Of a stretch of DNA of 64,000 bases, positions 8,725 through 49,011 are shown one piece after another. The stretch's first letter is position 1. Each line of letters begins with the position of its first letter. Source of the stretch: Planctomycetota bacterium (GTDB lineage Bacteria > Planctomycetota > Phycisphaerae > Phycisphaerales > SM1A02). The translations under genes and the position numbers were made by a program. The notes under the pieces are model-generated. The model did no database searches, was not told the origin of the DNA, and worked only from the letters and a program-made list of their open reading frames with translations. The stretch lies in assembly GCA_003671025.1 (NCBI GenBank), contig QWPW01000001.1:204461-268460 (forward strand), read 5' to 3'.

Positions 8725-8909
8725 GAACGAAATCTGTGGTGTCGCAGGGGAGTGGATCATCGTGGTCGAGTTTGCCATCAAATTAGGGCGAGGGACATCG
8801 GGTCGCGAAAAATTCGAGCAATGCTTCAGTCCTTGTGCTGCCAACACTGCGGCGTCGCCGGCGAGGGTTGGTTACGGTGCGTTGGCTCGTCACCCATCGA
8901 AGGAAAATC

Positions 8910-21666: not shown

Positions 21667-22236
21667 GTGCCACTCGCAAGAATCCGACTTCTCTGCCTCG
21701 ATGTTGATGGCGTTCTCACCGACGGCGGAATCTCGATTGACGATGCTGGCCACGAGACAAAACGGTTTCACGTGCGCGACGGCGCAGCGCTGCGCATGTG
21801 GTCGCGCTTAGGCTTTGAGACCGCAGTCATCACTGGTCGCAGCGGCATGGCCTTGCGTCATCGATTGCGCGAACTCGGTGTCAAACATGTCATCTCGGGC
21901 TCGAAGGAAAAAGGCGCGGCGTTTGAGGCGTTGCTCCTCGAAATGAAACTCGAGGCGAGCGACGCCGCGATGATTGGTGATGACATTCCCGACTTACCGA
22001 TTCTGCGTCGTTGTGGATTTCCCATCGCGGTGCGCGACGCTTCGCCCGAAGTGCTTGCGGTTGCCGCGTTGATCACTTCGCGTGCGGGCGGCAATGGCGC
22101 GGTGCGCGATGCGATTGAACACATTCTCAAAGCGAAGGGACGCTGGTCCGACGCAGTGCGCACCTTTGATGCGGAGTTTCGTGACAGTGCCGAGTCGACC
22201 GCGGGTGAAACAACGTGCGAAGGAATGGGCGCATGA
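21667..22236 (+). CDS. kdsC: 3-deoxy-D-manno-octulosonate-8-phosphate phosphatase
   Basis: A 189-residue C0-type HAD phosphatase. It has LDVDGVLTDG with nucleophile and acid Asp12/Asp14 near the N-terminus, then FHVRDGAALRMW, TGRSGMALRHR (motif II), a GSKEKGAAFE Lys motif and IGDDIPDLPIL (motif III). All are as in KdsC, which hydrolyses KDO-8-phosphate to KDO for LPS. The start is GTG 21667. Its stop overlaps the next gene (ATGA at 22233-22236), linking KDO supply to LPS transport in one operon, as kdsC-lptC-lptA are linked in proteobacteria. Confidence 0.93.
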   Translation: MPLARIRLLCLDVDGVLTDGGISIDDAGHETKRFHVRDGAALRMWSRLGFETAVITGRSGMALRHRLRELGVKHVISGSKEKGAAFEALLLEMKLEASDAAMIGDDIPDLPILRRCGFPIAVRDASPEVLAVAALITSRAGGNGAVRDAIEHILKAKGRWSDAVRTFDAEFRDSAESTAGETTCEGMGA

Positions 22237-25200: not shown

Positions 25201-25769
25201 GCGAAACCGCACCAACAAAGCCATCGACCACCGCCAAGGCGCAAGGATCAATCGCGCTCGGCGCTGATGGAACCACGCGCTTTCGCTGGAAAGAGCGCAT
25301 GGCTATCGAGCATCAGTACGACGATGTGTTCAAGATCGTGATGCAGCGCGATGTCGAATTGTTGCATGCAGGATTGCGCGTCGATGACACGATGTCGATG
25401 CGCTGCGACACGCTCGAAGCAATGGTCAAGCGTCCGCTCGAGAAGAAAGACAGCGTCATCGATGAGACAGGCGCAAGCGGAGAACGCGGCGTCGATCTTG
25501 GTGGTCCCGCAGAAATGCTGAGCATCAAAGGCTCGGGCGCGGTCATCATTCGCACGGCCGAACAGGACATCGAGTGCGGCGAGTTTGATTACTCGCTCGC
25601 CACGGGAATTGCCACGCTCACTGCAGCGCCAGGACGCACTGTGACTGTCGCGATGAAAGGGCAACCTTCACCGATTCGCGCGCAGCAAATGATTTGGGAT
25701 CTGCGCAACGGGCGACTGCAGGTCTCGAAGGTGTCCGGTGTCGGCGCGGCGGGTTCCGGCGGACGATAG
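22233..25769 (+). CDS. Giant LptC/LptA (OstA)-like LPS transport protein
   Basis: About 1178 residues, roughly five times a normal LptA. A single transmembrane helix at about residues 10-32 (LVFAVPAGALAVLVVVAALN) anchors it, as in LptC. The rest is beta-rich with repeated patterns of the OstA/LptA beta-jellyroll type, such as VVITAEQAQFDGILGEVRCD, KGDELVAIFNLE, HIEYDLRTREGLVVGDGG and MRCDTLEAMVKRP, and a final IRAQQMIWDLRNGRLQVSKV. It overlaps kdsC by ATGA. It would span the periplasm as an LPS bridge, replacing separate LptC and LptA. Functional assignment rests on pattern and gene order. Confidence 0.78.
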   Translation: MSLQTLLRDRRGLVFAVPAGALAVLVVVAALNLDSGSTKQSRVSRIGDAEALLAPRTATTDELSRASNSVEDQASISLASGAWIQVADETGRLAQQYSATKLDPMPGSQLAMTEPRAMMYMKDGRVLVLSSRKGVAFAPRRALESGTLEEDVVVRLFKPARNSDGKIEAEVDVDHDIPAVVITAEQAQFDGILGEVRCDKAVRVATEAGSFAGEGLSLVLDADGDGLERLVVERATEPIRIDRAARAMAAKRSNDNSTNPAEKPDTTQPPAIHDPSDVALDTKPKKNKKTKPNASFYRLVLSGGVEIVRVRRGEISTVKGDELVAIFNLESHGIDDVAFAPTRSDDGNDGTKLATNELIMHPRSWLSPRHHSATLMAPTALAVSALAFAQPQVSSGASTATPSRDLASSNSAPDDGDSVTVTFGGRLVMLPAIDPDDQLAHKDDIRFDVIGPRVELLDGRSSSRITCSRLRYSVRDERVEAEGREGFPLRVTSPRMQLEGSRFWANLSNEGIDAGKGRLEGAGSMAFSRADAQRVSLLQWAPTMVVDASRMLVSADPGAVLMVQSTPPATEFRFDPSTQDLEIKWTGGVDLRFTEGGDQAKLSLARFEGGVNVFGRQFEMDAASLEVAFAPDDSQRIDAIIADGGTKVRRLGGEGSMNAERLELFLGTNSAGDPIPRRLVARTAVEARDARQVIWTEDLVVGFREKVAPAVDAAIAANSLTATGAAFEVAQGGGALGDNLGDIDIESVHAKGGVQILLKEGARVFAQELIGDASKRKLRLTGDNVAIVRTNVVADNLRDLRFDDATRSARSEGPGRFRVFREPLTLGEGKVERPNPQGRPSMEASWSESLDYSEVAETRGNVDIRGDVKVRSRPSDTTSDAIDAQSILLELGIDPKSKGAASSKDTVPHGAAGSSQELANAERSLDHFIAKGGARLESRTFATAERVGEPRVFRVSGEHIEYDLRTREGLVVGDGGILVNMPKSAQAAVSETAPTKPSTTAKAQGSIALGADGTTRFRWKERMAIEHQYDDVFKIVMQRDVELLHAGLRVDDTMSMRCDTLEAMVKRPLEKKDSVIDETGASGERGVDLGGPAEMLSIKGSGAVIIRTAEQDIECGEFDYSLATGIATLTAAPGRTVTVAMKGQPSPIRAQQMIWDLRNGRLQVSKVSGVGAAGSGGR

Positions 25770-26823: not shown

Positions 26824-29415
26824 ATGCGCACGGTCATGCAATTCACGACTTTCCTCTTGTCAATCTTCGTGCTCGTATGCATGGGCGCTTGCGTGCCCAA
26901 GGCAGGTTCGAGCGGCATGGTCGCGGCACCCGCGAGTCAGAACGGAAACACCGTCGTCGCGCAAGCAGCACCCGCGTTGCCCGCTGACGCGGTGGAAGAT
27001 TCGTGGCCGCGCACCTTCACCATGGGCACCGATGCCATCACGATCTATCCGCCCAACATTCAATCGTGGAGTGGCACGGTCGTCACCGGAACATGCGCCT
27101 TCTCGCGCGCAGTCGTCGGCGCCAAGGGCCAGACCTACGGAACGATGTCGTTTACCGCCGCGACTGAAGTGAACAAACTCAATCGCATGGTGACGCTCTC
27201 CACCATTCAGATCACTGGACTTTCGCTGCCAGAAAACCCAGCAGATCAATCGACGATCCTCGGCGAAATCTCGGGTCGCTCCAGCGGCAAGTCAATCAAC
27301 ATCGCGCTCGATCGATTTGAAGCGGCTGTTCCCGGCATGTCCACCGCGCCGAGCGTTTCGACTGCGCCGCTGCAGAACAATCCTCCACAACTTTCGATCG
27401 TGACGCTTCCCACAGTGCTCGTTCCGATTCAGGGCGCGCCTGTGATGCAGCCGCTGCCAGGCACGAGTCTGCAACGCGTGATCAACACGCCGATGTTGTT
27501 GGTTCAAGACACGAGCGGAAACTTCTGGCTCAAGATTGCCGACGGTTGGATGACTGCATCGGCGCTCAACGCCGCATGGACCGTTGCTTCACCCGCAGTG
27601 GGGCAATCGTCGACCGCCGACCTTCTCGTTGCCGCGCAGTGGGCCGTGTCGCAACCTTCGATCAACTTGCTCGCGCCGTCGAGCAGTGATGCCGCGTTGG
27701 GTTCGGATAAATCGCAGACCGCATCGCTCGCCGTCAGCGCGCCCGTCATTGTGGTTTCCACGACGCCCGCGGAAGTCTTGGTCATCGAAGGCATCCCTAA
27801 GTGGGTTCCCGCGGGACAAAGCGGTTTGTTGTATGTGTCAAACACGAGCGCAAACATCTTTCAACTCCAAGCGACCGCGACAACGTATGTGACGATCTCG
27901 GGTCGTTGGTTTAGCGCCTCCTCGATCGCGGGTCCGTGGACTTATGTTTCGCCCGACACACTGCCGGGCGCGTTCATGATGATTCCTCAAGACAGTCCCA
28001 AAGAGAACGTGCTCGCTTCGATCCCCGGAACTGTTCAAGCGCAAGAAGCCACGATTGCGAATTCGGTGCCGCAGATGGCACGCGTTCCAATCACGCAGGT
28101 CCTGCCTCCGCCGGTAGTGATTGGTGGCAGCGAGAAGTGGCAGCCTGTCACGGGCACGTCGGTGATGGTGCTCTCCAACTGCGCGACTCCAGTGTTTCGC
28201 ACCTCTCCTAATACATATTTCGCGGTGGAGAACGGCATTTGGTTCACCACCACCAATCTGAAGACTGGGTGGGTGGTCGCTTCGTGGGTTCCACCAGCGA
28301 TCTACGCGATTCCCCCGTCAAATCCCTATTACTACGTCACCTATGTGCGCGTGTACAACGCGACTCCAACCTATGTACTCGTGGGTTACACCCCGGGATA
28401 TTTCGGCGCTTATATGCAAGGCGGAGTGGTGGTGTATGGAACGGGTTACGCCTATGTTCCATATTGCTCGACCGTGTGGGTTCCCGTTCCTATGACATAC
28501 GGTTCTTGTGCCTCGATGACTTACAACCCGTGGGCGGGTTGGGCGGTTGGATTTGGCATGGGTATGGCGGTTGGCTGGGCCATGGGCTCGAGCAGCTGGC
28601 ACTGCGGTCCGTATCCCTACTGGGGTCCATACTGCGGTGGCGGATACGGTCCTCACGGTGCTGCAGCTTGGGGCCCTCACGGATGGGCCGCGACCACGGG
28701 CAATGTTTATCACCAGTGGGGCAGCGTGACTTCGATGAGTCGCTCGAGCGCGGGTTACAACTCGTGGACGGGCAATGAATGGTCAGCACATACAAACGCT
28801 GCTTACAATTCCACGACTGGCGCACGCGCGGCAGGTCAGACCGGTCATGTGCAGAACGCCTACACCGGCAACTGGGCTGATGGCGCGCGTGGTGCTGGCT
28901 ACAACCCAACCACGGGCAACTACGCCGCAGGCAAGGGCGTCGTTGCGGGAACTCCTGGTGGGACGACTGTCGCTGCCGGTGCAGCCACGATTGGAAACAC
29001 GAAGACTGGACAGAGCGCATCTGTCGCAGGTGTCTCGACCGCCAACGGAACTTGGGGGGTCGCGCACGGTGAGAACGGAACTGCGGTTGCCACGGGCAAC
29101 AACGTCTACGGCATGCAAGATGGCAACGCCTACAAGTACGACGACACCACCAACTCGTGGCAGCAAGCGGGCAAGGACTCGAGCGGCAACAGTGGATGGA
29201 ATAGTGTGAACAACTCCAGCACCACCGACTCGCTCAATCAGCAGAAGGCCACGCGTGATGACGGAGATGCGCGCGCGTCCAACTCGGATCGCTGGCAGTC
29301 CGGCGGAAGCGGCTACAGCGGCAACTCGCAGCGCAGCTCTAGCAGCAGCTGGGGCGGCGGCGGCGGATCTCGCGGCGGTGGTGGCGGATCCCGCGGTGGT
29401 GGCGGGCGACGTTGA
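26824..29415 (+). CDS. Large Tyr/Trp/Gly-rich lipoprotein of the carbohydrate-binding V/XII-like type
   Basis: 863 residues. A lipoprotein signal ends in VLVCMGAC. The first 480 residues are beta-rich, with repeated WFSASSIAGPWTYVS- and WFTTTNLKTGWVVASW-like modules. A YYVTYVRVYNATPTYVLVGY segment follows, then a glycine/tryptophan-rich membrane-like stretch (GWAVGFGMGMAVGWAMG). A repeat region follows (SWTGNEW, NSTTGARAAGQTG, NPTTGNYAAG, NTKTGQSASV). The tail is SSSSWGGGGGS then RGGGGRR. Proteins of this type are exported surface proteins of unproven function. The ATG at 26824 is chosen as start because the signal peptide begins there. A strong terminator follows. Confidence 0.75.
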   Translation: MRTVMQFTTFLLSIFVLVCMGACVPKAGSSGMVAAPASQNGNTVVAQAAPALPADAVEDSWPRTFTMGTDAITIYPPNIQSWSGTVVTGTCAFSRAVVGAKGQTYGTMSFTAATEVNKLNRMVTLSTIQITGLSLPENPADQSTILGEISGRSSGKSINIALDRFEAAVPGMSTAPSVSTAPLQNNPPQLSIVTLPTVLVPIQGAPVMQPLPGTSLQRVINTPMLLVQDTSGNFWLKIADGWMTASALNAAWTVASPAVGQSSTADLLVAAQWAVSQPSINLLAPSSSDAALGSDKSQTASLAVSAPVIVVSTTPAEVLVIEGIPKWVPAGQSGLLYVSNTSANIFQLQATATTYVTISGRWFSASSIAGPWTYVSPDTLPGAFMMIPQDSPKENVLASIPGTVQAQEATIANSVPQMARVPITQVLPPPVVIGGSEKWQPVTGTSVMVLSNCATPVFRTSPNTYFAVENGIWFTTTNLKTGWVVASWVPPAIYAIPPSNPYYYVTYVRVYNATPTYVLVGYTPGYFGAYMQGGVVVYGTGYAYVPYCSTVWVPVPMTYGSCASMTYNPWAGWAVGFGMGMAVGWAMGSSSWHCGPYPYWGPYCGGGYGPHGAAAWGPHGWAATTGNVYHQWGSVTSMSRSSAGYNSWTGNEWSAHTNAAYNSTTGARAAGQTGHVQNAYTGNWADGARGAGYNPTTGNYAAGKGVVAGTPGGTTVAAGAATIGNTKTGQSASVAGVSTANGTWGVAHGENGTAVATGNNVYGMQDGNAYKYDDTTNSWQQAGKDSSGNSGWNSVNNSSTTDSLNQQKATRDDGDARASNSDRWQSGGSGYSGNSQRSSSSSWGGGGGSRGGGGGSRGGGGRR

Positions 29416-37684: not shown

Positions 37685-38098
37685 ATGCATCTCAAACGCG
37701 ACGACGATCATCAACACGGACCTCCGGTCATCTCCATCACTTTCGAATTGGAAGATCCCGAAGGCCTCACGGGCACCGGTCAGAAGACATGGAATGTTCT
37801 CGGCGGTGAACACGAATCACTGCTCGAAGTTGCCATCGACAACGGCATCAACATCGAGCATGCATGCGGCGGAGTTTGTGCCTGCTCGACCTGTCACATC
37901 TATCTCGAGCGCGGTGGCGAGCAAGTAAACGATGCGAGCGAAGCAGAAGAAGATCGCGTTGAAGAAGCGCCGGGCATTCGTCGCAGTTCGCGTCTCGCGT
38001 GCCAATGCGAACTGAAAGATCTCGGCGCACAGCGCGGCCCGATCGTCATTCGCGTGCCTTCGTGGAATCGCAACGCAGTAAAAGAGATTCCGCACTAA
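37685..38098 (+). CDS. fdx: [2Fe-2S] adrenodoxin/ISC-type ferredoxin
   Basis: 138 residues. After a histidine-rich leader, the plant/vertebrate-type ferredoxin fold carries CGGVCACSTC. Cys61, Cys67 and Cys70, with Cys106 in SSRLACQCEL, give the C-x5-C-x2-C...C cluster set of ISC-type ferredoxins. It donates electrons for Fe-S cluster assembly. The next gene is iscX, which supports the ISC link. No iscS, iscU, hscA or hscB is in the window. It is divergent from rlmN, whose product needs an Fe-S cluster. An in-frame ATG at 37649 is possible. Confidence 0.92.
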   Translation: MHLKRDDDHQHGPPVISITFELEDPEGLTGTGQKTWNVLGGEHESLLEVAIDNGINIEHACGGVCACSTCHIYLERGGEQVNDASEAEEDRVEEAPGIRRSSRLACQCELKDLGAQRGPIVIRVPSWNRNAVKEIPH

Positions 38099-38138: not shown

Positions 38139-38336
38139 ATGCACTGGCTCGACATACAAGAGATTGCGGAAGCACTCGCTGCTGCGCACGACGACATCGA
38201 TCCCACCATTGTCAGTTTTCCTACGCTGAATGCGCTCGTGCTGTCCTTGCCGAATTTTGCGGAAAAACAAGGGCATCCCTGCAATGAACGCATTCTCGAA
38301 GCGATCCAACAAGCGTGGATAGATGAGCGTGACTGA
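38139..38336 (+). CDS. iscX: Fe-S assembly protein IscX (YfhJ)
   Basis: A 65-residue acidic protein with the full IscX pattern: WLDIQEIAEALAAAHDDIDP, then TLNALVLSLPNF and NERILEAIQQAWIDE. IscX modulates cysteine desulfurase and iron delivery in Fe-S assembly. It lies 40 bases downstream of the ferredoxin gene in the same direction, as at the end of proteobacterial isc operons. Confidence 0.93.
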   Translation: MHWLDIQEIAEALAAAHDDIDPTIVSFPTLNALVLSLPNFAEKQGHPCNERILEAIQQAWIDERD

Positions 38337-38387: not shown

Positions 38388-39512
38388 ATGAACGACACAC
38401 ACTCGACTCCGCCGACGCGCCGCGATTTTCTAGGAACCGTCGCGGTGGGCGCGGCGAGTGCAGCACTGCCGAGCGTGAATGCGAGCGTGACGCACGCCGA
38501 ACCGATTAAGACAGGCGTGCGCAATTCAGTCGAGCGCTATCACGCGGCGGCGATTCAAACAGCATTTGAAAACCCCAAGACGCGCGCAGAAATTCCCGCG
38601 CGCGTGGCACGCATGATTGCCATGGCTGAGCAAACGGTCGCGGGATACGCGCCGTTTTTTGATGTGCGATTAGTTGCGTTTCCCGAGTTCGCGCATGCGG
38701 CGCCGGTGTACTTCACGCAAGCGGAACTGCTGGAGCATCTCGCGGTGGAACTGCCCAATGAACACACAGAGGCGTACACGCGCTTCGCGAAGAACACTGG
38801 GTGCTACGTGCAAACGGGAACCTTCATCGAGCGCGATGCGAAGTATCCCGGCGCGGTGTTCAACACCACGTGCTTGATCGGTCCAACGGGAATTCTCGCG
38901 AAGTATCGCAAGGTGAATCCGTGGATTCCCTGGGAAGTGCACACCAGCCCGCACGATCTCGCCAACTATCAAGAGAACCCGTTCCCCGTGGTCGACACCG
39001 AAATCGGCAAGCTCGGTTGCGCGATTTGTTACGACTGGTTGTTTCCCGAATCGATTCGTCAACTCGCGTTCAACGGCGCCGAGGTGCTTATTCGCGTGAG
39101 TGCGTACATGGATCCGTGGGGCGCAACGGCGCCGATGGATTGGTGGACAACGATCAATCGCGCGCGCGCCATCGAGAACACTGCCTATGTTCTCGCGTGT
39201 AATCAAGGCGCGACGTTTGAGGGCTATCCGCCGTTTTCATGGCCGGGTGGATCGATGGGAATCGATTTCGATGGCCGCATCTTGGCGCAAGCCGATGCGG
39301 GCGCGGGCGAGAAAGTAGTGGTGATGCCCATCGATTTAGCCGCGCTGCGTGAGGCGCGGCAACGCCGTCGCGGCCATGACATGCGCGCTCACTATCGCGC
39401 GGAAGTTCATCCTTACGCCGCGACTCCGCGCTTTGCCAGAGCAGGTGACGGCGCGATTGATATTGCCAGCAACGACGCGCGTATTGCGGCAGCGAAGCTG
39501 TTGTTGCCTTGA
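38388..39512 (+). CDS. Tat-exported nitrilase-superfamily amidohydrolase
   Basis: 374 residues. The N-terminus TPPTRRDFLGTVAVGAASAA carries a twin-arginine motif and hydrophobic core. The carbon-nitrogen hydrolase triad is complete: Glu100 in VAFPEFAHA, Lys175 in KYRKVNPW and Cys214 in GCAICYDW. The fold also has RARAIENTAYVLACNQG and a PGGSMGIDFDGRIL segment. It probably hydrolyses an amide or nitrile outside the cytoplasm. Export by Tat is uncommon for this superfamily. It is the last gene before the three-gene cytochrome cluster; whether it belongs to it is unknown. Confidence 0.9.
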   Translation: MNDTHSTPPTRRDFLGTVAVGAASAALPSVNASVTHAEPIKTGVRNSVERYHAAAIQTAFENPKTRAEIPARVARMIAMAEQTVAGYAPFFDVRLVAFPEFAHAAPVYFTQAELLEHLAVELPNEHTEAYTRFAKNTGCYVQTGTFIERDAKYPGAVFNTTCLIGPTGILAKYRKVNPWIPWEVHTSPHDLANYQENPFPVVDTEIGKLGCAICYDWLFPESIRQLAFNGAEVLIRVSAYMDPWGATAPMDWWTTINRARAIENTAYVLACNQGATFEGYPPFSWPGGSMGIDFDGRILAQADAGAGEKVVVMPIDLAALREARQRRRGHDMRAHYRAEVHPYAATPRFARAGDGAIDIASNDARIAAAKLLLP

Positions 39513-39620: not shown

Positions 39621-42600
39621 ATGATTCAAACTCAAGCGCGAACAAGAATGGTTGCACTGCTGCTGATGAGCATCGCTCTCGCGTCGTGCGACCAAGATGT
39701 TTCAACTCCGTCGACTGCTGGCGCAACTCCATCCACAGCAACATCAACGCAAGACGCAACGAGTGCCCCGCAAAGCGACTCCAATGCGCCGCCGCTGGAG
39801 ACGATGAATCATGCGGTGGGATTGATGGGACGGTTTGAATTCGAGCGCGCGCAAGCGGAGTTCGCGCGCATTGCCGCCGCACCGAACGCGCCCGCCGAGG
39901 CGCAACTCAATCACGCGATCGCGACGCTCAATCAATCGCATGAAGGCGCGCAAGATGAAGCGCTCGCGCTCCTTGACGCGCTTCTGAAGTCCAAGCCCAC
40001 GAGCGAGATTGCCCAGCGCGCGCAGTACTGCCAAGGGGTGTGCTTGCTCTATCTCGGTCGTGCGAAAGAAGCGCAGGCAATGCTGCTGCCACTGGCGCAA
40101 GCACAGTCATCAGACGCCTACACCTGCTACCTCGCCGCGCAGAGCTTGGAGCAGAACAACGAGTACGCGATGGCATTGCAGTGGTATGACCGCGCCACGA
40201 TCGAGGACTCGTCACTCAAGAGTGCACAACTTGGTGTGCAGCGGTGTGCGCAACGACTGGGAAACGAAGCAAAAGCGAGCGCCGCGTTGGCCGCATTCGA
40301 AGCGCTCACGCTCAACCCGCGCGCGCGCACCGCCGAGTTCAAATACTCGCGCATGGGTCCACTGGCGATGGCCATCGTCGAGCAAGCGAATGCGATCGCG
40401 CCGCAACCGCAGCTTCCAGGGGAATTCTTTTCGGAAGAGCATGAACTGGTCGTGCACTGGCCTGAAGGAGAAACGCCCGCGTGGGGAAACGATGTCGAGC
40501 AGCACGCGGCGTCGGTCGATCTCGACGGTGACGGAAAACTCGACATCGTCATTGCTCGCGGACTTGCGGCAAAGCCAGGATCAAGCGCGCGGGCGTTGGT
40601 ATTGCACGCGCGCGGCGATGGAAGTTACGACGCGCTTACGCAGCATCCGCTGGCAACACTCGCGGGCGGCAGCGTGAACTCGATGCTCTTTGGCGACATC
40701 GATGAAGACGGTCGCACCGATCTCTACTGCTGCGCGCGCGATGGCAACCGTCTCTTGCTCGCGACGACCGACGGAGGCTTTCGTGACGCGACTGAATCAA
40801 GCAAAACCCGCGGCGCGGGGGTGAATTGCCTCGACGGCGCGCTGGCGGACCTTGATCACGATGGTGATCTCGATCTCTTTGTGATCTATCGCGACGGCGC
40901 CAACGAGTTGTTCATCAACAACTCTGATGGAACCTTTCGTGAGATCGCGCGCGCTGCAGGAATCGCCGACGCTCCGCGCAATCCGCAAAGCGTGATCATC
41001 GCCGACTTCGATTTCGATCGCGACGCAGACATCTTCATCCTCAACAAGACGATGCCTCATCAGTTGCTGCTCAACGATCGGCTCTGCCATTGGAGCGAAG
41101 GCTTGGCCGAGGGCGTTTCGCAAGAACAACTCGACAATTCTGCAGTGGCAGCGGCGGTGGTGGAACTCACAGGAATTCCGCTGCGTCGGTTGATGCTCGC
41201 AACCGGGACCTATCTGCGTTTGCCCACTCGCATGGAACAACTCACGCGCAATCGTTCCGTGGAAATCGCAGTGGCCGATGTCACTGGTGATGGACGTGCC
41301 GATGTGTTTTTGCTGGGCGCCGACGCGATCACTATGCACAGCGATGGTGGTCGTGAAGTGATGCAATGGCCTGTCGCGCAAGGCACGGTGCGCACGCAGT
41401 TGCTCATGCTCGATGCGTTGCACGGTGCATCACTTCTTGCCCTGCGCGTTGGCGGAGCGCCGCTGGTGCGAGACGCAGGTGCGGGTCGAGGTGCATTCGT
41501 TGCGTTGAAGTTGAGTGGTCGCACTGAAGCGTCGCAATCGATGCGCTCCAACAGCAGCGGCATCGGAACCAGTTACGCCGCGCGCGTTGGTGCGACGTGG
41601 TCCGGTGGCGAAACGTTTCGCAATCACACGGGGCGTGGTCAATCGCTTGCGCCCGTCGCCATCGGTGTGGGCGGGTATGGCAAAGCGGATTTCGTCGAGT
41701 TCGAGTGGTCCGATGGCGTGTTGCAAAGCGAACTTGATCTCGCGGCGGGATCGTTGCACACCATCAGTGAGACGCAGCGACAGATCTCGTCGTGCCCAGT
41801 GATCTTTGCGTTTGACGGCCAAAAGATGCGGTTTGTCACCGACATTCTTGGCGTCGGCGGTTTGGGATATCTGCTCGCGCCCGGCGTCTACAGCGAGCCG
41901 CGACCGTGGGAAGTGTTGGTGTTACCCGTCAACGCACTGCAACCGCGCGCTGGGGGAACGCTCTCGCTCACGCTCGCCGAGCCGATGGAAGAGTCATGCA
42001 TGCTCGACCGCGTTCGACTGCGTGCGATTGATCTTCCGCAAGGTTGGGACATCGCGCCCGATGAGCGACTCGCGATCGGTGGTGCGGCGCCCACGGGCGA
42101 AATTGTCGCGTGGCGCACGTGTTGGTTGCCGCAGAAGAATGATGCGCTCGCTCGCGTCGATCTCATCGCCCCTGATGTGGGTCCGCTTGACAGGCGATTC
42201 ATCGGACGACTCGCAGGTGAGCAGGTGATTGAACTCGAGTTTGATACTGCGATCGATGCCATCGATGACCCATGGCTCGTGATCGATGGTTGGGTTGAGT
42301 ATCCCTATTGCCAAACGATGTTCGCGGCATGGCAAGCCAACGCGCGCTACACGGCGCCAAGTTTGCAGGCGCGCACGCGCGATGGTGTGTGGGTCGATCT
42401 CGTCGCCGAGTGGGGCTATCCCGCAGGAATGCCGCGACGAATGGCGTTGCCCATCCCGAAGTCTGCGTTGCCCGCAGGTGCGACTGCGCTGCGCATGAGC
42501 ACCACCATGCAGGTCTACTTCGACAGTGTGCGTTTGGTCGCACGCGAAACACTGCCCAGCGAAGCGAGCGAACTGCAGCTCACACGCGCGTCGCTGGCCT

Positions 42601-42989
42601 CCGTGGGTTTCGCGCAGCGATCAACTGGTCCGCAGCATCAACCGTTTTACGATCACGATCGTTTGCTTCCATTGTGGGACTGCCGATTTCAGCGGGGTCT
42701 GTACACCGAGTTTGGTGATGTGCGCGCCTTGTGCGAGCAGGTCGATGGCGCGCTGGTTGTGTTTGGCCCTGGCGAAGAGGTCGCACTTGATTTCGTATCG
42801 CCTCCGCACAACGCCCTTGCGGGTGCAACGCGTCGCTACATCCTCGAGGTCAACGGTTGGTGCAAAGACATGGACTTGTTTACCCGCGACGGCGAAACTA
42901 TCGCGCCGCTGCCGGAGATTGCCGCGATGACGGAGGCTGCGCGAGCATTGATGCGCAGCACACGAACCCGTCCAATGGGTGGGCGATGA
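39621..42989 (+). CDS. Lipoprotein with TPR, FG-GAP and UnbV-like domains
   Basis: About 1122 residues. A lipoprotein signal (LLMSIALASC) is followed by a TPR region (about 45-250). Next come FG-GAP/VCBS beta-propeller repeats with Ca-loops: VDLDGDGKLDIV, GDIDEDGRTDLY, ADLDHDGDLDLF and ADFDFDRDADIF. An ASPIC/UnbV-like segment, GTSYAARVGATWSGGETF, follows, then a large beta-rich C-terminal module with FVTDILGVGGLGYLLAPGVY. It is probably attached to the outer membrane and calcium dependent. It leads the cluster: the five-haem cytochrome gene starts 22 bases after its stop. An ATG at 39648 is an alternative start. Confidence 0.82.
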   Translation: MIQTQARTRMVALLLMSIALASCDQDVSTPSTAGATPSTATSTQDATSAPQSDSNAPPLETMNHAVGLMGRFEFERAQAEFARIAAAPNAPAEAQLNHAIATLNQSHEGAQDEALALLDALLKSKPTSEIAQRAQYCQGVCLLYLGRAKEAQAMLLPLAQAQSSDAYTCYLAAQSLEQNNEYAMALQWYDRATIEDSSLKSAQLGVQRCAQRLGNEAKASAALAAFEALTLNPRARTAEFKYSRMGPLAMAIVEQANAIAPQPQLPGEFFSEEHELVVHWPEGETPAWGNDVEQHAASVDLDGDGKLDIVIARGLAAKPGSSARALVLHARGDGSYDALTQHPLATLAGGSVNSMLFGDIDEDGRTDLYCCARDGNRLLLATTDGGFRDATESSKTRGAGVNCLDGALADLDHDGDLDLFVIYRDGANELFINNSDGTFREIARAAGIADAPRNPQSVIIADFDFDRDADIFILNKTMPHQLLLNDRLCHWSEGLAEGVSQEQLDNSAVAAAVVELTGIPLRRLMLATGTYLRLPTRMEQLTRNRSVEIAVADVTGDGRADVFLLGADAITMHSDGGREVMQWPVAQGTVRTQLLMLDALHGASLLALRVGGAPLVRDAGAGRGAFVALKLSGRTEASQSMRSNSSGIGTSYAARVGATWSGGETFRNHTGRGQSLAPVAIGVGGYGKADFVEFEWSDGVLQSELDLAAGSLHTISETQRQISSCPVIFAFDGQKMRFVTDILGVGGLGYLLAPGVYSEPRPWEVLVLPVNALQPRAGGTLSLTLAEPMEESCMLDRVRLRAIDLPQGWDIAPDERLAIGGAAPTGEIVAWRTCWLPQKNDALARVDLIAPDVGPLDRRFIGRLAGEQVIELEFDTAIDAIDDPWLVIDGWVEYPYCQTMFAAWQANARYTAPSLQARTRDGVWVDLVAEWGYPAGMPRRMALPIPKSALPAGATALRMSTTMQVYFDSVRLVARETLPSEASELQLTRASLASVGFAQRSTGPQHQPFYDHDRLLPLWDCRFQRGLYTEFGDVRALCEQVDGALVVFGPGEEVALDFVSPPHNALAGATRRYILEVNGWCKDMDLFTRDGETIAPLPEIAAMTEAARALMRSTRTRPMGGR

Positions 42990-43010
42990 GATCCCGTTAG
43001 ACTTTCGAGT

Positions 43011-46000
43011 GTGACGAAATTTCGACCCGCCGTTGGTCCGCGATTGGCATGGCTGCTTGCGGCGGTGTTTTGTTTGTTCGCGTTGTTGATGGTGAACAGC
43101 GCGTACCTCGCGTCGATCACTCTGCTCGAGTGGTTCACCAACGAGACGTTGCAAAACCAGTTTTATCTGTGGAACTTCTTGGCACACCTCGTGCTCGGCT
43201 TCGCCATCGTGGTGCCGACGATTGTGTTCGGTGCGTTGCATTGGCGCAACGTTCACAACCGACCGAACCCACGCGCGATCTCTGCAGGCATCGCCACTTT
43301 CGTCGCGGCGATCGTGCTGTTGGCGACAGGTGTTGCGCTCACGCGTGTTGAACTTGCGGGCACCACCATCGGACTGCGCGAGCCCATGTGGCGCGACAGC
43401 GCGTATTGGATTCACGTCATCGCGCCGCTATTGGTCGCGTGGTTGTTCGTGCTCCATCGACTTTCGGGTCGTCGCATGAAGTGGAAAGTCGGCGCTCGCT
43501 GGACCATGGCCACCGCCGCCGCAGCGATAGCCGCAGTGCTTGGGCACTACGCGATTCCCTCGGCAAAACCAGTGGTTCCCAGCGACGGCGAGCGTTACTT
43601 CGAACCGTCGTTGGCCAAGACCAACACCGGTGGATTCATTCCCGCGCAGGGTTTGATGGCCAACGAATACTGCCTTGAGTGCCACCAAGACGTCGTGCAT
43701 TCATGGGCGCACTCAGCGCACGCGGCGAGCTCGTTCAACAATCCGCTCTACACCGCGAGCGTGCGCGAGACGCGGCAACAAGCGTTCGCGCGCGAAGGCA
43801 AAGTCAACGACGCGCGCTTTTGCGCCGGTTGTCACGACCCGGTTCCGTTTCTCTCGGGATCGTTTGAAGACCCCAAGTGGGACGATCCTGCCTACGACGT
43901 TGCCAACGATCCGCTCGGGCGCGCGAGCATCACCTGCACGGTGTGTCACGGAATCATCTCCGTCGACTCACCGCGGGGAAATGCTGACTACACGTTGCGT
44001 GAGAGCCCGCACTATCCCTTCGCGTTCAGCGATTCGCCGCTGTTGCAATGGGCGTCGAGTCAACTCATCAAAGCGAAACCGTCGTTTCACAAGCGCACGT
44101 TTCTCAAGGACGAAGTCCATCGCTCGAGCGAATTCTGCGGCGCATGCCACAAAGTATTTTTGCCCGAAGCGCTCAACGATTACAAGTGGTTGCGCGGACA
44201 AGATCATTACGATTCGTTCCTCTATTCCGGCCGCAGTGGCCACGGCGTCCTCGGTTGGTACTACCCCGAGAAAGCGGCGACCGATTGCAACACGTGTCAC
44301 ATGCCCGCGATGATCAGCGACGATTTCGCTGCGCGCACACGCGACGGCAGCGGTCAACGCAGCGTGCTCTCCCATGCATTTCCCAGCGCGAATACCGCGC
44401 TTTCTTGCGTGATCGACATGAGCGTTGGTGCGATGTTGCCTGACTCGGCCGCCTATGTCGGCGAGGGCGAAGTGTCGAATGAAACGGCGGAGCAAGCGCG
44501 CGCCGCGATCGCCGCTGCGGCTGCGGGCTTCAACGCGAAGACGCTGCGGCTTGATCTCTTTGCGCTGCGTGAAGGTGGAACGATTGATGGCGCGTTGCAT
44601 GTCATCCGTCCCTCACTTCCGACTCTGCGCGCGGGTCAAACCTATCTGCTCGAAGTCGTGGTGCGCACACTCGACATTGGCCACGAGTTCACCCAAGGCA
44701 CTGCTGATTCCAACGAAGCATGGTTGTACGCGCGCGCTTCGATGGAAGGCCGTGAGATCGGCAGCATCGGTGCGCTGGGAACACGTGGCGCGCTCGATCC
44801 TTGGAGCCGAACCTACAACGCGTTCGTGATCGATCGCGAAGGCAATCGTATTGATCGCCGCAACCCACAGGATATTTTTCTGGCGCTGTTCAACAACCAG
44901 ATTCCTCCTGGCGCGGGCGATGTGACGCATCTTCTGTTCACCGTTCCACTCGAGGCCAACGCGCCGATTGAGATTGAGAGCGAAGTGCGCTATCGCAAGT
45001 TCGATACGACCTACATGGAGTTCGTCTATGGAGCCGATCGTGTGAACGATTTGCCGGTGATGATTCTCACGCGTGACAGCATCACGCTTCCCGTGCAAGA
45101 TCGCGATGGCGTCGTGCACGGCAAGACCACGATGGACGCGCGCGCGTTCCCTCCGTGGCAACGTTGGTACGACTACGGCATTGGTCTCTTGCGTGAGGCT
45201 GATCGCGGTGCAGGTCGTGGTGCCGTGCGTCAAGCCGAAGAAGCGTTCGTCGAAGTCGAAACGTTGGTGCCTTCGGTTGGCGCACTCGCGCAGGCGCGAT
45301 TGCAGATTCGCGAAGGACGTCTCGACGAAGCCGCCGCGTCACTCGCGCGCGCTTCGACTGCGGCAGCAGGGGGCGCGATTCCTTCGACTCCATGGACCAT
45401 CACCTATTTCACGGCGTTGGCGGACAAGCAAAACGGCAACTTTTCCGCAGCAATCGAGGGGTTTCAGCGGGTGTTGGCCACCGACTTCGCTGGCGCGCGC
45501 GAACGCGGATTTGATTTCTCTATCGACACACGCGTGCTCAACGAACTCGCGGAGACCACACTCGAAGCGGCGCGTCTTGAGCGAGGCGAGAGTCAGCGCG
45601 CGCACGTCGTGCAATTGCTCGAACAAAGCCAGCAGTCGCTTCGCGCTTCGTTGAAGGTCGATCCCGAGCAAGCGCAAGCGTGGTGGTTGCTTGCGCGCGC
45701 GTGCGATGAACTCGGCCAAGTCGACGAGGCCAAGGTCGCGCGCGAGCAGCACGCGAAATACAAGCTCGACGAAAACGCGCGTGATCGTGCAGCTCGCTTG
45801 GCGCGCGAAAAATATCCGTGGGCCGATCATGCCGCGGAGGCCACCGTGTTTTACGACCTCATGCGACCGGAGCGATTCGTCGGAGGTCTTCTGCCAGGGA
45901 CTCGTTTGGAAGTTCCCAAAGTTTTACCACCGCCGCTCACGCCGTCAGCTTCGCCGCCACCATCTTTGGCACCACCATCTTTGGCACCACCATCTTTAGC

Positions 46001-46034
46001 ACCACCAGTACTCGGCACGTCTTCCAACCGTTGA
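43011..46034 (+). CDS. Membrane-anchored five-haem cytochrome c with TPR domain
   Basis: 1007 residues. Four to five transmembrane helices fill the first 190 residues. A periplasmic domain then carries five CxxCH haem sites: CLECH, CAGCH, CTVCH, CGACH and CNTCH, with the HSWAHSAHA segment typical of multihaem cytochromes. A beta domain follows, then TPR-like helices (YWYDYG region, QARLQIREGRLDEAAASLARA) near residues 720-950. The C-terminus has a PPSLA tandem repeat. It likely takes electrons from the membrane quinone pool to periplasmic partners. Genes on both sides code FG-GAP proteins. Start at GTG 43011. Confidence 0.87.
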   Translation: MTKFRPAVGPRLAWLLAAVFCLFALLMVNSAYLASITLLEWFTNETLQNQFYLWNFLAHLVLGFAIVVPTIVFGALHWRNVHNRPNPRAISAGIATFVAAIVLLATGVALTRVELAGTTIGLREPMWRDSAYWIHVIAPLLVAWLFVLHRLSGRRMKWKVGARWTMATAAAAIAAVLGHYAIPSAKPVVPSDGERYFEPSLAKTNTGGFIPAQGLMANEYCLECHQDVVHSWAHSAHAASSFNNPLYTASVRETRQQAFAREGKVNDARFCAGCHDPVPFLSGSFEDPKWDDPAYDVANDPLGRASITCTVCHGIISVDSPRGNADYTLRESPHYPFAFSDSPLLQWASSQLIKAKPSFHKRTFLKDEVHRSSEFCGACHKVFLPEALNDYKWLRGQDHYDSFLYSGRSGHGVLGWYYPEKAATDCNTCHMPAMISDDFAARTRDGSGQRSVLSHAFPSANTALSCVIDMSVGAMLPDSAAYVGEGEVSNETAEQARAAIAAAAAGFNAKTLRLDLFALREGGTIDGALHVIRPSLPTLRAGQTYLLEVVVRTLDIGHEFTQGTADSNEAWLYARASMEGREIGSIGALGTRGALDPWSRTYNAFVIDREGNRIDRRNPQDIFLALFNNQIPPGAGDVTHLLFTVPLEANAPIEIESEVRYRKFDTTYMEFVYGADRVNDLPVMILTRDSITLPVQDRDGVVHGKTTMDARAFPPWQRWYDYGIGLLREADRGAGRGAVRQAEEAFVEVETLVPSVGALAQARLQIREGRLDEAAASLARASTAAAGGAIPSTPWTITYFTALADKQNGNFSAAIEGFQRVLATDFAGARERGFDFSIDTRVLNELAETTLEAARLERGESQRAHVVQLLEQSQQSLRASLKVDPEQAQAWWLLARACDELGQVDEAKVAREQHAKYKLDENARDRAARLAREKYPWADHAAEATVFYDLMRPERFVGGLLPGTRLEVPKVLPPPLTPSASPPPSLAPPSLAPPSLAPPVLGTSSNR
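45957..46001 (+). repeat. 15-bp coding tandem repeat (PPSLA, 3 units)
   Basis: CCACCATCTTTGGCA occurs at 45957-45971 and 45972-45986, with one change in the third unit (45987-46001). It codes for PPSLA three times at the C-terminus of the cytochrome. A length-variable Pro-rich tail is likely. Confidence 0.9.
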
Positions 46035-46059
46035 CCGCAAACTCTGCACAGCACCAGCG

Positions 46060-48039
46060 ATGACTCAGCCAACGCAAGACTTTCGTAACGAGCGCGATCG
46101 CCATCCAGCCAAATCGCCATCGAGTGACGTGCGCGACAACAAACTTGGCGCGGACGAAACTCCAGGTGACGACCGCTTGGTCGCGCGTGGTTTTTGGCGC
46201 TCCGTCATCGTGATGTTTCTGTTGGCTCTGATCACCTTTGCCATCGTGCAATGGCGCACGAAACCCGCAGCAATTCCTGGTTCTGCGAACAACGCAGGTT
46301 CGCCCATTGCTCCGCCCTCGGCGGGAGTCACGCCCTCAGCGGGCGTCGTATTTGACGATGTCTCGCAACAAGCCCTCGGCGCGTTTGCCCATACTTCAGG
46401 CGCACGCGGCGCGAAGTTGCTTCCCGAATGTCTGAGCGGTGGCGTGGCCATCGTCGATCTTGATGGCGATGGAAAGCTCGACCTCGTCTTTGCGCAAGGC
46501 CAACCGCTCGAACCCGCTGCCGCAGCGGACGGCGCGAATCGCGGCGGAATCCAAGTGTTTCGCAACATCACGATTCAGCAGGGCGCCATCAGGTTCGAAG
46601 CGATCGAACTCCCCGACCCACTTGCGCGTGCGATGTATGCCAACGCCATCGCAGTGGGCGACATCAACGGTGATGGGCGAACAGATTTGTTCGTGACCAC
46701 TGTGGGACGAAATCGATTGCTGCTCAATCAATCGTCAGGTGAAGGGTCGATCGCGTTCGTCGACGCGAGTGATGCGTGGAACGTTCCGCGCGACGATCAG
46801 TGGAGCACCAGCGCGGGAATGTTTGACGCGGACAGCGACGGCGATCTTGATGTAGTGGTCACGCACTATGTGCAGTGGTCTCCGACAATCGATCGTGCCG
46901 TCGACTATCGACTCGATGGAATCGGTCGCGCCTATGGACCGCCCAGTGGATTCGAAGGGACATCGCTTTCGTTGCTGCTCAATGACGGCGTCACATTGCG
47001 CGATGCCACACTCGCGTCAGGCGTCGCCATCACCAATCCTGTGACGGGCGCGCCGTACGGCAAGACGCTGGGTCTTGCGTTTGTCGATGCTGACCGCGAT
47101 GGTCGCACCGACATTCTCGTGGCCAACGATCGCACGCCGAAGTTTCTCTTGCGCAACATGGGCGTGAGCGACAGTGGCGTGCCGCACTTCGCGGATATCG
47201 CGACGGAAGTTGGCTTTGCCTACGACCGTGATGGAAGTGCAACTGGCGCGATGGGCATCGACTTCGCATGGCCGCGCAACAACGCAGAACTTGCGGTGGC
47301 GGTGGGCAATTTCGCGAACGAACCGAGCTCGCTCTATATCGCCCATCCCAGCGCAGGCCGCGGTGAGCTGACGTTTTCAGACGAGGCGCTCGGTCAAGGA
47401 TTCGGCGCTCCAACGCGGCGCTTCCTGACCTTTGGCATGTTGTTTCTCGATGTTGATCTCGATGGCGACGAAGATCTGCTGCAAGCGAACGGGCATCTCG
47501 AGCCCGAGATCGCGCGCATTCAACCGAGTCAAACCTATGCGCAGCGCGGACAACTGTTCGAGAACCGCGGCGCCGAATCGGTGCCGTTGTTTGTCGAAGC
47601 GGCACCCGAACTCACAGGAGCGTTGGCCACGCCCGCAGTTGGTCGCGCGTTGGCGTGGGGAGATCTTGATCGCGATGGCGATCCTGATTTGGTGTTGACC
47701 GATCTCGGTAGCGCGCCGCGTGTGTTGGTCAATCAACAGACACGCGGCAATCACTGGATCGCGATCGCGCTCAATAGTGGTAACAAACCCGGGCGCGCGT
47801 TGAGTGCGGAGGTGGAGATCGACGCGGTCATCGGCGGGGTCTTTGGAGAGCGCAAAGTCACCCAACGACGCACGATTTCACCCACGCGCAGCTATCTCTC
47901 GCAGTGCGAGGCAGTCGCGCACTTTGGACTTGGTCAAGCGACGCGCGTTGACGAGGTGCGAGTTCGCAGCAGCGATGGCGTGGTCACGACGTTGAATAGC
48001 GTGCGCATCGACGCGCTCACCACCATCAATCTCGAATAA
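46060..48039 (+). CDS. CRTAC1-type FG-GAP/UnbV protein, membrane anchored
   Basis: 659 residues. One transmembrane helix (about 45-63, SVIVMFLLALITFAIVQW) after a hydrophilic leader makes it a type II anchored periplasmic protein. At least six FG-GAP/Ca-loop units follow, including VDLDGDGKLDLVFAQG, GDINGDGRTDLFVTT, FDADSDGDLDVVVTH, VDADRDGRTDILVAN and GDLDRDGDPDLVLTD. The C-terminal ASPIC/UnbV domain ends SYLSQCEAVAHFGLGQATRVDEV. CRTAC1 proteins are calcium-dependent beta-propellers, sometimes beside cytochromes. It lies 25 bases after the cytochrome gene, and its TAA stop begins an A-run that serves as part of the opposing terminator. Confidence 0.88.
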   Translation: MTQPTQDFRNERDRHPAKSPSSDVRDNKLGADETPGDDRLVARGFWRSVIVMFLLALITFAIVQWRTKPAAIPGSANNAGSPIAPPSAGVTPSAGVVFDDVSQQALGAFAHTSGARGAKLLPECLSGGVAIVDLDGDGKLDLVFAQGQPLEPAAAADGANRGGIQVFRNITIQQGAIRFEAIELPDPLARAMYANAIAVGDINGDGRTDLFVTTVGRNRLLLNQSSGEGSIAFVDASDAWNVPRDDQWSTSAGMFDADSDGDLDVVVTHYVQWSPTIDRAVDYRLDGIGRAYGPPSGFEGTSLSLLLNDGVTLRDATLASGVAITNPVTGAPYGKTLGLAFVDADRDGRTDILVANDRTPKFLLRNMGVSDSGVPHFADIATEVGFAYDRDGSATGAMGIDFAWPRNNAELAVAVGNFANEPSSLYIAHPSAGRGELTFSDEALGQGFGAPTRRFLTFGMLFLDVDLDGDEDLLQANGHLEPEIARIQPSQTYAQRGQLFENRGAESVPLFVEAAPELTGALATPAVGRALAWGDLDRDGDPDLVLTDLGSAPRVLVNQQTRGNHWIAIALNSGNKPGRALSAEVEIDAVIGGVFGERKVTQRRTISPTRSYLSQCEAVAHFGLGQATRVDEVRVRSSDGVVTTLNSVRIDALTTINLE

Positions 48040-48065
48040 AAAATCCACGCCGCATTCGGCGTGGA
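48038..48065 (-). terminator. Factor-independent terminator of the zinc-ribbon gene
   Basis: TCCACGCCG (48044-48052) pairs with CGGCGTGGA (48057-48065) around a 4-base loop, a 9-pair GC-rich stem. On the minus strand it is followed by TTTTTT (A-run 48038-48043). It lies 43 bases past the stop of the zinc-ribbon gene and its A-run overlaps the CRTAC1-like gene's stop codon on the plus strand. Confidence 0.88.
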
Positions 48066-48107
48066 CTTGAATGTTGACGTCAAATGGCGTCGTTGCGGCG
48101 CGCGCGC

Positions 48108-48863
48108 TTACTTTTTCGTCTTCTCGACCGGCCGATTGGCCTCGAGCAGATGAAGAATGCGCGTGCATGCCTTGCACTGAATCAACACCTCCGACGTCGA
48201 GGCCAACTTGGCGTACGCCTCGAAGGGGACTTCGATGTGACACACGCCGCACGCGAATTCGCGATGACGCATGTCGACGATCGTGACCTCAGCCATCGCT
48301 TCGCCGTCCATTTCTTCGGCGACCTTGTCAAACAACTTTCGCTCGCGCGTAGGAATGAGCGTGCCCGCGCGGTCGCGTTCACTTTCGAGTTCAGAGAGTC
48401 GCGAGCCAACATCGTTCATGCACTCGTCGAGCTTCGATTGTGCGACTTCGCGAATCTTGCGCCGCTCGATGATGGTGGCAACGTGCGTGTCGAGGCGCTT
48501 CTTGGTGTCCTCGGCGCGTTGCATGTCATCAAGTGTGCGCTTGACGCTCTCGTCCTTCTGCGACTCCAACATCTTGAGTTCGTTGAGGATCGCTTTGTAT
48601 TGCTTGTCGTTGGTCGAGGTGTTGAGTTCGGAGCGCAACTTGTCAACGCGCTCTTGCGCGGACGCTTGCTCCATCTCAAGGTTGTGCACTGCGGCCTTCA
48701 GCTGACGCTCCTGCGTTTCCAGTTCGAGCTTCTGTCGATCGAGCGTGGTGAGCAGTTTCTCCTGTGCTGCAAGATAGGTCGTTGCGGAATCAACCCGGCT
48801 GCGCAGGGCGCGAACTTGGCTGTCGACTCGGTGCAGTGTCAGAAGATTGTCAAGGAGCGCCAT
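48108..48863 (-). CDS. Coiled-coil protein with C-terminal C4 zinc ribbon
   Basis: 251 residues from ATG 48863. A long coiled coil covers about residues 1-175 (EKLLTTLDRQKLELETQERQL). It is followed by a zinc ribbon with CGVC and CKAC spaced about 30 residues apart near the C-terminus. This is the layout of the C4-type zinc-ribbon coiled-coil family (DUF164/CT398-like), widespread and often next to metabolic or envelope genes; its function is not settled. It ends with a charged tail. Confidence 0.85.
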   Translation of the reverse strand: MALLDNLLTLHRVDSQVRALRSRVDSATTYLAAQEKLLTTLDRQKLELETQERQLKAAVHNLEMEQASAQERVDKLRSELNTSTNDKQYKAILNELKMLESQKDESVKRTLDDMQRAEDTKKRLDTHVATIIERRKIREVAQSKLDECMNDVGSRLSELESERDRAGTLIPTRERKLFDKVAEEMDGEAMAEVTIVDMRHREFACGVCHIEVPFEAYAKLASTSEVLIQCKACTRILHLLEANRPVEKTKK

Positions 48864-49011
48864 AGAGCGTCGGATGCTAGCACAATCCGTACCGCGTTTC
48901 GCTCGACGATTCGCGTGCATCGAAGTGATGCACATCGTGGTGAATCGCCTTCGCAACCGCGAATTTTTCGATGTTGTTCGCAAGTCGCAGACATTGCTCA
49001 CAGGTCGTGGA

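Follow-up and report, generated by a model that had tools for sequence, protein, structure and literature searches.

We analysed a 64,000-nucleotide stretch of a Planctomycetota bacterium (contig QWPW01000001.1 of GCA_003671025.1, a 3.25 Mb assembly of 68 contigs), here called the window, in which three adjacent plus-strand genes encode a lipoprotein with tetratricopeptide repeat (TPR)-like and propeller parts (gene 1), a multihaem cytochrome (gene 2) and a CRTAC1-type protein (gene 3). Comparison across 63 loci demonstrated that the conserved unit is the pair of cytochrome and CRTAC1, not the trio, and that this pairing belongs to particular CRTAC1 clades, not to CRTAC1 proteins in general. 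The conserved adjacency therefore suggests that the two proteins act together as an undescribed electron-transfer unit, in which known domains (DUF4405-type b, pentahaem c, TPR and CRTAC1) form a new combination. Our literature search, whose scope left out most subscription papers and preprints, returned no description of the pair, the closest papers being PMC12758564 and PMC11334425; the original prediction, made from the letters of the window, knew of no characterised system with exactly its set of three genes. The three genes were found where that prediction had placed them, with spacers of 21 bases (genes 1 and 2) and 25 bases (genes 2 and 3), and have the following features.

39621-42989, plus strand: gene 1, 1122 amino acids (aa); lipoprotein (lipobox Cys23) with a TPR-like solenoid (residues 59-230), a CRTAC1-like propeller and UnbV-like domain (266-719) and a conserved beta-rich C-terminal region (720-1122); from sequence, Pfam and model
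43011-46034, plus strand: gene 2, 1007 aa; cytochrome with a DUF4405-type membrane module, pentahaem c part, beta domain and TPR tail; from Pfam, alignment, model and profile comparison
43038-43553, plus strand: five predicted membrane helices of gene 2 (residues 10-181), containing His 59, 77, 135 and 149; from model and alignment
43671-44300, plus strand: five CxxCH haem c sites of gene 2, from the first base of the first to the last base of the fifth; from a motif scan
45153-45836, plus strand: TPR helices of gene 2 (residues 715-942); from Pfam, model and fold search
46060-48039, plus strand: gene 3, 659 aa; CRTAC1-type protein with a hydrophobic N-terminal segment, FG-GAP propeller and UnbV_ASPIC domain; from Pfam and tree
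47806-48018, plus strand: UnbV_ASPIC domain of gene 3 (residues 583-653); from Pfam

Conservation of the cytochrome-CRTAC1 pair

Of 61 related genomes, 42 gave a match to gene 2; the match was strong (E < 1e-100) in 35, and 34 of these belong to the window's own family of 37 genomes. An even draw across the phylum gave gene 2 matches in 86 of 294 genomes at E 1e-10, and the labels on 22 named relatives were planctomycete in 18 cases, "uncultured bacterium" in three and Limnohabitans in one. The 63 loci compared comprise the window's group (the window and 22 further loci), 20 loci of strong hits from the phylum draw (tier 1) and 20 loci of weaker hits from the same draw, divided into tier 2 (11 loci, 27-31% identity) and tier 3 (9 loci, 23-28% identity); the window's group and tier 1 together are referred to as tier-1 type (43 loci).

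CRTAC1 was the next same-strand gene in 49 of the 59 loci that have a gene downstream of the cytochrome, down to 23% cytochrome identity (10/19 in the window's group, 20/20 in tier 1, 10/11 in tier 2 and 9/9 in tier 3), and 23 of these 49 adjacent pairs overlap or abut. Six further loci of the window's group carry CRTAC1 within six genes, behind insertions, and in three (L037, L038 and L044) the contig ends before any CRTAC1. The tier 2 exception is L115, where the two remaining called genes are unrelated; in another tier 2 locus (L116) CRTAC1 was called as two pieces. Rare adjacency, which would have refuted the proposed unit, was thus not observed, but the widely conserved part is genes 2 and 3. 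Gene 1 directly precedes gene 2 in 22 of the 23 loci that make up the window's group, and in none of the 36 other loci having an upstream gene. All neighbour families other than CRTAC1 and gene-1-like proteins were confined to a few at most of the 40 loci beyond the window's group, where neighbours were compared as families and not annotated singly.

As a control, we examined 40 regions around other UnbV genes, including the four remaining paralogues of this genome, in which 45 CRTAC1-like genes were called. Only one of the 45 (L178) adjoins a same-strand gene with three or more CxxCH motifs, so that a general rule by which CRTAC1 implies a multihaem neighbour was not borne out; under a laxer test, nine of the 45 had any gene with one CxxCH within two genes. 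The neighbourhood of the pair is therefore conserved far beyond that of other CRTAC1 genes, which favours the predicted dedicated redox unit. CRTAC1-type proteins are numerous in planctomycetes, with up to 28 UnbV matches in one genome among 59, and our literature searches met no tested function for the bacterial ones; a CRTAC1 clade tied to one cytochrome makes a functional role testable.

Gene 3 itself combines FG-GAP repeats with a UnbV_ASPIC domain (PF07593) that scores 49.6 bits against a cut-off of 23.4, and a hydrophobic N-terminal segment, as expected of a membrane anchor or signal, is present in 34 of 35 tier-1 type gene 3 proteins. The propeller and UnbV-type domain of both gene 1 and gene 3 resemble murine CRTAC1 (PDB 9etn), from which gene 1 differs by its added TPR and large C-terminal region, and gene 3 by its tie to a cytochrome. 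A tree of 87 CRTAC1 proteins placed the 44 usable linked proteins of the window's group and tiers 1 and 2 without exception in one clade (support 1.0), together with two unlinked members, and the four other UnbV paralogues of this genome fell outside it. The nine tier 3-linked proteins form a separate clade (support 1.0). In the cytochrome tree, for which the Granulicella protein described below was set as outgroup, tier 3 branches first, then tier 2, then the rest. In favour of a common history of the pair, pairwise distances in the two trees are correlated (r = 0.931, n = 54 pairs, 0/2000 permutations as high; 0.901 for 35 pairs of the window's group and tier 1, 0.735 for 9 tier 2 pairs).

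The tier 1 and 2 clade also has conserved residues of its own (W273, D278, Y292, K335, G416, E421, F458 and E481 in gene 3 numbering), scarce elsewhere: W273, D278, Y292, K335, E421 and E481 were each found in at least 95% of tier-1 type and 100% of tier 2 proteins, against 6-15% of 33 unlinked ones. H479 is invariant in the clade and occurs in 42% of unlinked CRTAC1 proteins as well. The polar members of this set (W273, D278, Y292, K335, E421, H479 and E481) may form a pocket.

As a separate observation, seven loci (L037, L038, L040, L041, L045, L046 and L054) have same-strand genes of clusters 13 and/or 14 downstream of the cytochrome, which on inspection look like an AAA-type ATPase and a von-Willebrand-type protein; in several of these loci they lie between cytochrome and CRTAC1.

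A predicted di-haem b module fused to a predicted pentahaem c part

The predicted five-haem content of gene 2 was confirmed at the level of motifs, with in-frame CxxCH sites at residues 221, 271, 309, 376 and 426 and a Cytochrome_C554 (PF13435) score of 23.8 bits against a gathering cut-off of 20.8. A scan of both strands of the window gave 18 CxxCH-type DNA matches, where 5.8 would be expected and none of 100 shuffles reached 18; five of them are those of gene 2. All five C..C.H sites and four further histidines (237, 360, 455 and 558) are aligned and invariant in 63/63 loci, although in the three tier 3 examples viewed the first site has four residues between its cysteines, as has the fifth site of L100. 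Position 399 is not a universal ligand, because the histidine found there in 42 of 43 tier-1 type loci is replaced by Glu, Asp or Gln in all 20 loci of tiers 2 and 3. The best solved relative of the haem part was MccSep (PDB 9wt8), with sequence similarity over approximately haems 1-3 (E 1e-5, profile positions 189-314); relative to the related ExtKL family (NF040886), gene 2 scored 24.7 bits against an NCBIfam cut-off of 250 and thus falls outside it.

On the membrane side, the gene 2 model has N-terminal helices at residues 10-43, 50-81, 87-111, 125-150 and 158-181, with His 59 and 77 in the second and His 135 and 149 in the fourth, and these four histidines are likewise aligned and invariant in 63/63 loci, down to 23% identity. 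Such an arrangement, with two histidine pairs in two membrane helices, is typical of di-haem b modules. In Geobacter, quinone dehydrogenases of the CbcL type join a multihaem c part to a membrane part with two b haems, and to our knowledge no CRTAC1 partner is known for them; we draw this parallel on layout and not on homology. With five predicted helices in gene 2 and the hydrophobic segment of gene 3, both products that had been predicted to be membrane anchored look so. The tail of gene 2 is modelled as TPR-like helices with a weak Pfam resemblance to the CcmH/CycH TPR domain, its TPR scores lying under the single-model Pfam cut-offs; of the TPRs that genes 1 and 2 had been said to share, the helices are thus seen in both models, but the Pfam scores of both are below cut-off.

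The identity of the membrane module was clarified by searching a plasmid collection with gene 2, which returned homologues in six records (Granulicella 1, Shinella 2, Nitratiruptor 2 and Aeromonas 1), of which five were opened and the second Nitratiruptor plasmid was left out. In Shinella HZN7 and Nitratiruptor YY08-14 a gene matching DUF4405 (23.7 bits for the Shinella gene, so annotated, and 31.9 bits for the Nitratiruptor gene, against a cut-off of 26.7) lies directly upstream of the pentahaem gene, with imelysin further upstream and FTR1 directly downstream; the same four genes were recovered in Shinella PSBB067 by tblastn. Aeromonas caviae has an FTR1-like frame directly downstream of its pentahaem gene, and neither DUF4405 nor imelysin was found in the Aeromonas stretch. 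The membrane part of the gene 2 family (27 proteins) aligned with two DUF4405 partners at an hhalign probability of 95.2 (E 2.5e-8), the histidine spacings of 18 and 14 residues are common to gene 2 and the DUF4405 partners in L138 and L139, and the Shinella DUF4405 protein matched the cytochrome of L098 by BLAST (E 9.6e-6 among 771 genes). At E up to 1, seven of the 27 membrane parts match PF14358 (best 1.3e-5) and six match cytochrome b561 (PF01292). By these comparisons the membrane part of gene 2 is a module homologous to DUF4405, not a Pfam member of that family, which supports the predicted quinone-side placing of the cytochrome. It shares with DUF4405/cytochrome b561-like membrane cytochromes the four membrane histidines, present in 63/63 loci, and their spacing, and differs from them in its fusion to a pentahaem c part and TPRs, its five predicted helices and its Pfam score below cut-off. 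For one purified DUF4405 protein, an excerpt of a published study (PMC11334425) describes haem b-typical spectra in vitro.

The clusters of Shinella and Nitratiruptor therefore look like a split version of the same cytochrome, with the same pentahaem core (five CxxCH and four other invariant histidines) and the same b-type module as a separate gene; the five haem sites and the equivalents of His 237, 360, 455 and 558 are kept in Granulicella, Nitratiruptor and Shinella. Unlike them, the planctomycete loci have CRTAC1 in place of FTR1 and imelysin, and gene 2 has a TPR tail. By occurring in both split and fused form, these b and c modules provide a link between FTR1-linked clusters, DUF4405 membrane cytochromes and electron transport in planctomycetes. 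In the acidobacterium Granulicella, a CRTAC1 gene of a different clade lies directly upstream of a pentahaem-TPR gene, so that the association also exists in another phylum. Separately, the loci L138, L139, L169 and L170 (Nitratiruptor, Shinella and Aeromonas), with a pentahaem cytochrome adjoining an FTR1 iron permease and, in the first two genera, DUF4405 and imelysin, represent a possible quinone-linked FTR1 system, on which our literature search gave no paper.

Proposed working of the pair and alternative readings

We consider it probable that gene 2 encodes a membrane-bound cytochrome exchanging electrons between the quinone pool and the periplasm, with the CRTAC1 protein as a fixed subunit and the gene 1 product as an accessory one. 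Two b haems would cross the membrane, liganded by His59/His135 on the periplasmic and His77/His149 on the cytoplasmic side, an assignment of sides that assumes the N-terminus to be inside and the haem domain outside. The five c sites, if occupied, would carry the path onward on the outside of the membrane in whichever direction electrons flow, and the TPR arm would dock a partner. The gene 3 product, a presumably anchored CRTAC1-type calcium propeller, would be held in a physical complex with the cytochrome, and the TPR/propeller lipoprotein would join it in the window's lineage. More tentatively, and with less than even confidence, we propose that many Planctomycetota have a redox complex not recognised before. 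In it, a quinone oxidoreductase with fused di-haem b and pentahaem c parts would be joined by a second subunit from one CRTAC1 clade with its own conserved polar residues, the propeller being where the putative substrate or next carrier binds. If true, one clade within the large family of bacterial CRTAC1 proteins would gain its first functional role.

Several findings weigh against the main reading, that of a quinone-linked cytochrome with a fixed CRTAC1 subunit. Three of the 37 family genomes are without a strong gene 2 match (G023 has none, G024 one of 1e-6 and G033 one of 4e-28). The tier 1 and 2 clade includes two CRTAC1 proteins that do not adjoin such a cytochrome (L184 and a second copy in L093), unlinked CRTAC1 proteins and that of Granulicella lie between this clade and the tier 3 clade, and L049 and L057 group with tier 1 in the CRTAC1 tree and with the window's group in the cytochrome tree. 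These intervening proteins and differing placements may mean that cytochrome and CRTAC1 became paired on more than one occasion, or that the trees are incompletely resolved; tier 3, judging from its separate clade, may have gained its CRTAC1 partner independently. The correlation of distances between the two trees partly reflects shared species history. Finally, the membrane part of gene 2 alone lies below the PF14358 gathering cut-off (14.4 vs 26.7 bits), and the gene 2 model has an overall predicted local distance difference test score (pLDDT) of 72.5 and drew mostly TPR proteins from the fold search, so that the haem and membrane parts were barely tested by it.

Among other explanations, a periplasmic enzyme is unlikely but retains some weight. 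One of the five c haems would be an open catalytic site, acting for example on nitrogen or sulfur oxo compounds and fed via the b haems. Only four non-CxxCH histidines of the haem part are invariant in all 63 loci, position 399 being variable, and both the relationship to MccSep and the presence of CRTAC1 genes among hydrazine-synthase homologue genes, as an excerpt of PMC12758564 has it, fit such a role. These ligand roles, however, are guessed from conservation, and outside the window's group only CRTAC1 travels regularly with the cytochrome.

Slightly less weight falls to a unit for iron or another metal, in which the pentahaem part would exchange electrons with periplasmic iron and CRTAC1 would be a metal-binding partner in the place of FTR1. 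It is favoured by the FTR1 or FTR1-like frame adjoining the pentahaem gene in four of the five opened plasmid records (Shinella HZN7, Nitratiruptor YY08-14, Shinella PSBB067 and Aeromonas caviae), by the ferredoxin and iscX genes upstream in the window, and by FezC, a DUF4405-like cytochrome that belongs to ferrosomes according to an excerpt of PMC11334425. Yet in the fifth record, that of Granulicella, the homologue adjoins CRTAC1 and no FTR1 is annotated next to it, the Aeromonas stretch yielded neither DUF4405 nor imelysin, FTR1 scored over its cut-off in 0/61 related genomes, and BLAST at E 1e-3 with the FTR1 proteins of Shinella and Nitratiruptor and the Shinella imelysin retrieved none of the 771 genes called in the 63 loci. 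The permease neighbour of an FTR1-linked iron uptake cluster was thus not found in these loci.

The original prediction had named an inner-to-outer-membrane electron path or a redox-coupled assembly, and an outer-membrane porin partner was to be looked for. Such a conduit for extracellular electron transfer could draw on a multihaem c domain, a lipoprotein and repeat proteins able to span the periplasm, but we regard it as improbable: MtrB/PioB was matched in 0/61 relatives at E 1e-3, so that no porin-cytochrome set of the MtrAB/PioAB kind was seen, no porin-candidate family recurs among the neighbours outside the window's group, taken as families, and the near-constant hydrophobic N-terminal segment of gene 3 speaks against it. 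We give just as little credence to an assembly or maturation factor for other membrane cytochromes with structural haems. TPR and propeller parts are common in assembly factors, and the TPRs of gene 2 weakly recall CcmH/CycH, but even at 23% identity none of the candidate ligands for the seven haems (four membrane His and five c sites) is lost, as one would expect if electrons pass along them. A general role of the cytochrome as replacement for a missing complex III can practically be dismissed: a di-haem b and multihaem c protein has the layout of a quinol:cytochrome oxidoreductase, but in this genome COX1 has an NrfD gene in its vicinity on contig 45 and a cytochrome b gene on contig 12, and NrfD was matched in 58/61 and cytochrome b in 21/61 relatives.

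Gene 1 and the surrounding genes

Gene 1 was correctly predicted to be a lipoprotein, with a lipobox LASC around Cys23 and the strict lipobox pattern in 15 of 23 relatives. Its model (pLDDT 77.7) shows a helical solenoid at residues 59-230 that matches the TPR protein MamA (Z 20), where the Pfam match to TPR_16 is weak and below cut-off (E 0.018), followed at residues 266-719 by a part closest to murine CRTAC1 9etn (Z 31.2, root-mean-square deviation 3.0, 429 aligned residues). Genes 1 and 3 had been said to share FG-GAP and UnbV parts; FG-GAP is present in both (FG-GAP_3 at 1.7e-30 in gene 1), but UnbV exceeds its cut-off in gene 3 only, gene 1 scoring 11.4 against 23.4 bits despite its structural match. 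The conserved, beta-rich region 720-1122 was hardly probed by the listed fold matches of the whole model, and we do not put it forward as a new fold; a copy of this region was also seen close to an unrelated CRTAC1 (L201).

Gene 1 is for the most part peculiar to the window's lineage, found (E < 1e-180) in 34 of the 35 related genomes with a strong gene 2 and in none of the 26 others, and a plasmid collection search with it gave no match. Five loci outside the window's group (L096, L097, L103, L120 and L128) contain, somewhere in the stretch, a distant gene-1-like protein with the C-terminal region. In the cytochrome tree L055, where the full cluster is present, branches off below tier 1 as well as below the other loci of the window's group, so that the link to gene 1 may predate the family, with loss elsewhere.

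The same-strand run begins upstream of gene 1 with three genes for which we claim no partnership, and a hairpin follows gene 3.

37685-38098, plus strand: 2Fe-2S ferredoxin, whose own CxxCH at 37883 is part of the ferredoxin
38139-38336, plus strand: iscX
38388-39512, plus strand: carbon-nitrogen hydrolase, directly upstream of gene 1
48041-48068: terminator-like hairpin between gene 3 and the convergent gene at 48108-48935, with its T run on the minus strand; from a consensus scan that gave 8 such sites where 11.9 were expected, so that its support is weak

The carbon-nitrogen hydrolase, considered as a periplasmic partner, was rejected: it is present in 23/23 loci of the window's group, with E100, K175, E183 and C214 conserved throughout, but in 0/40 other stretches, and a Tat-like signal was seen in only 4/23.

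A second cluster, consisting of an FG-GAP protein, a di-haem DHOR protein with a dockerin-like tail, a TPR protein and a further CRTAC1 (domain content checked for L051 alone), lies downstream of the pair in the distant relatives L050-L053 and L055 (for example at L051:14741-21602), and a set like it in order, size and haem motifs is found on the separate contig 54 of the window's genome (L193). Elsewhere in the window, two large plus-strand frames at 22233-25769 (1178 aa) and 26824-29415 (863 aa) had no Pfam match at E 1e-3, and a 940 aa protein on the minus strand (6025-8847) combines a lactonase-like propeller match with a di-haem peroxidase (CCP_MauG) match below cut-off.

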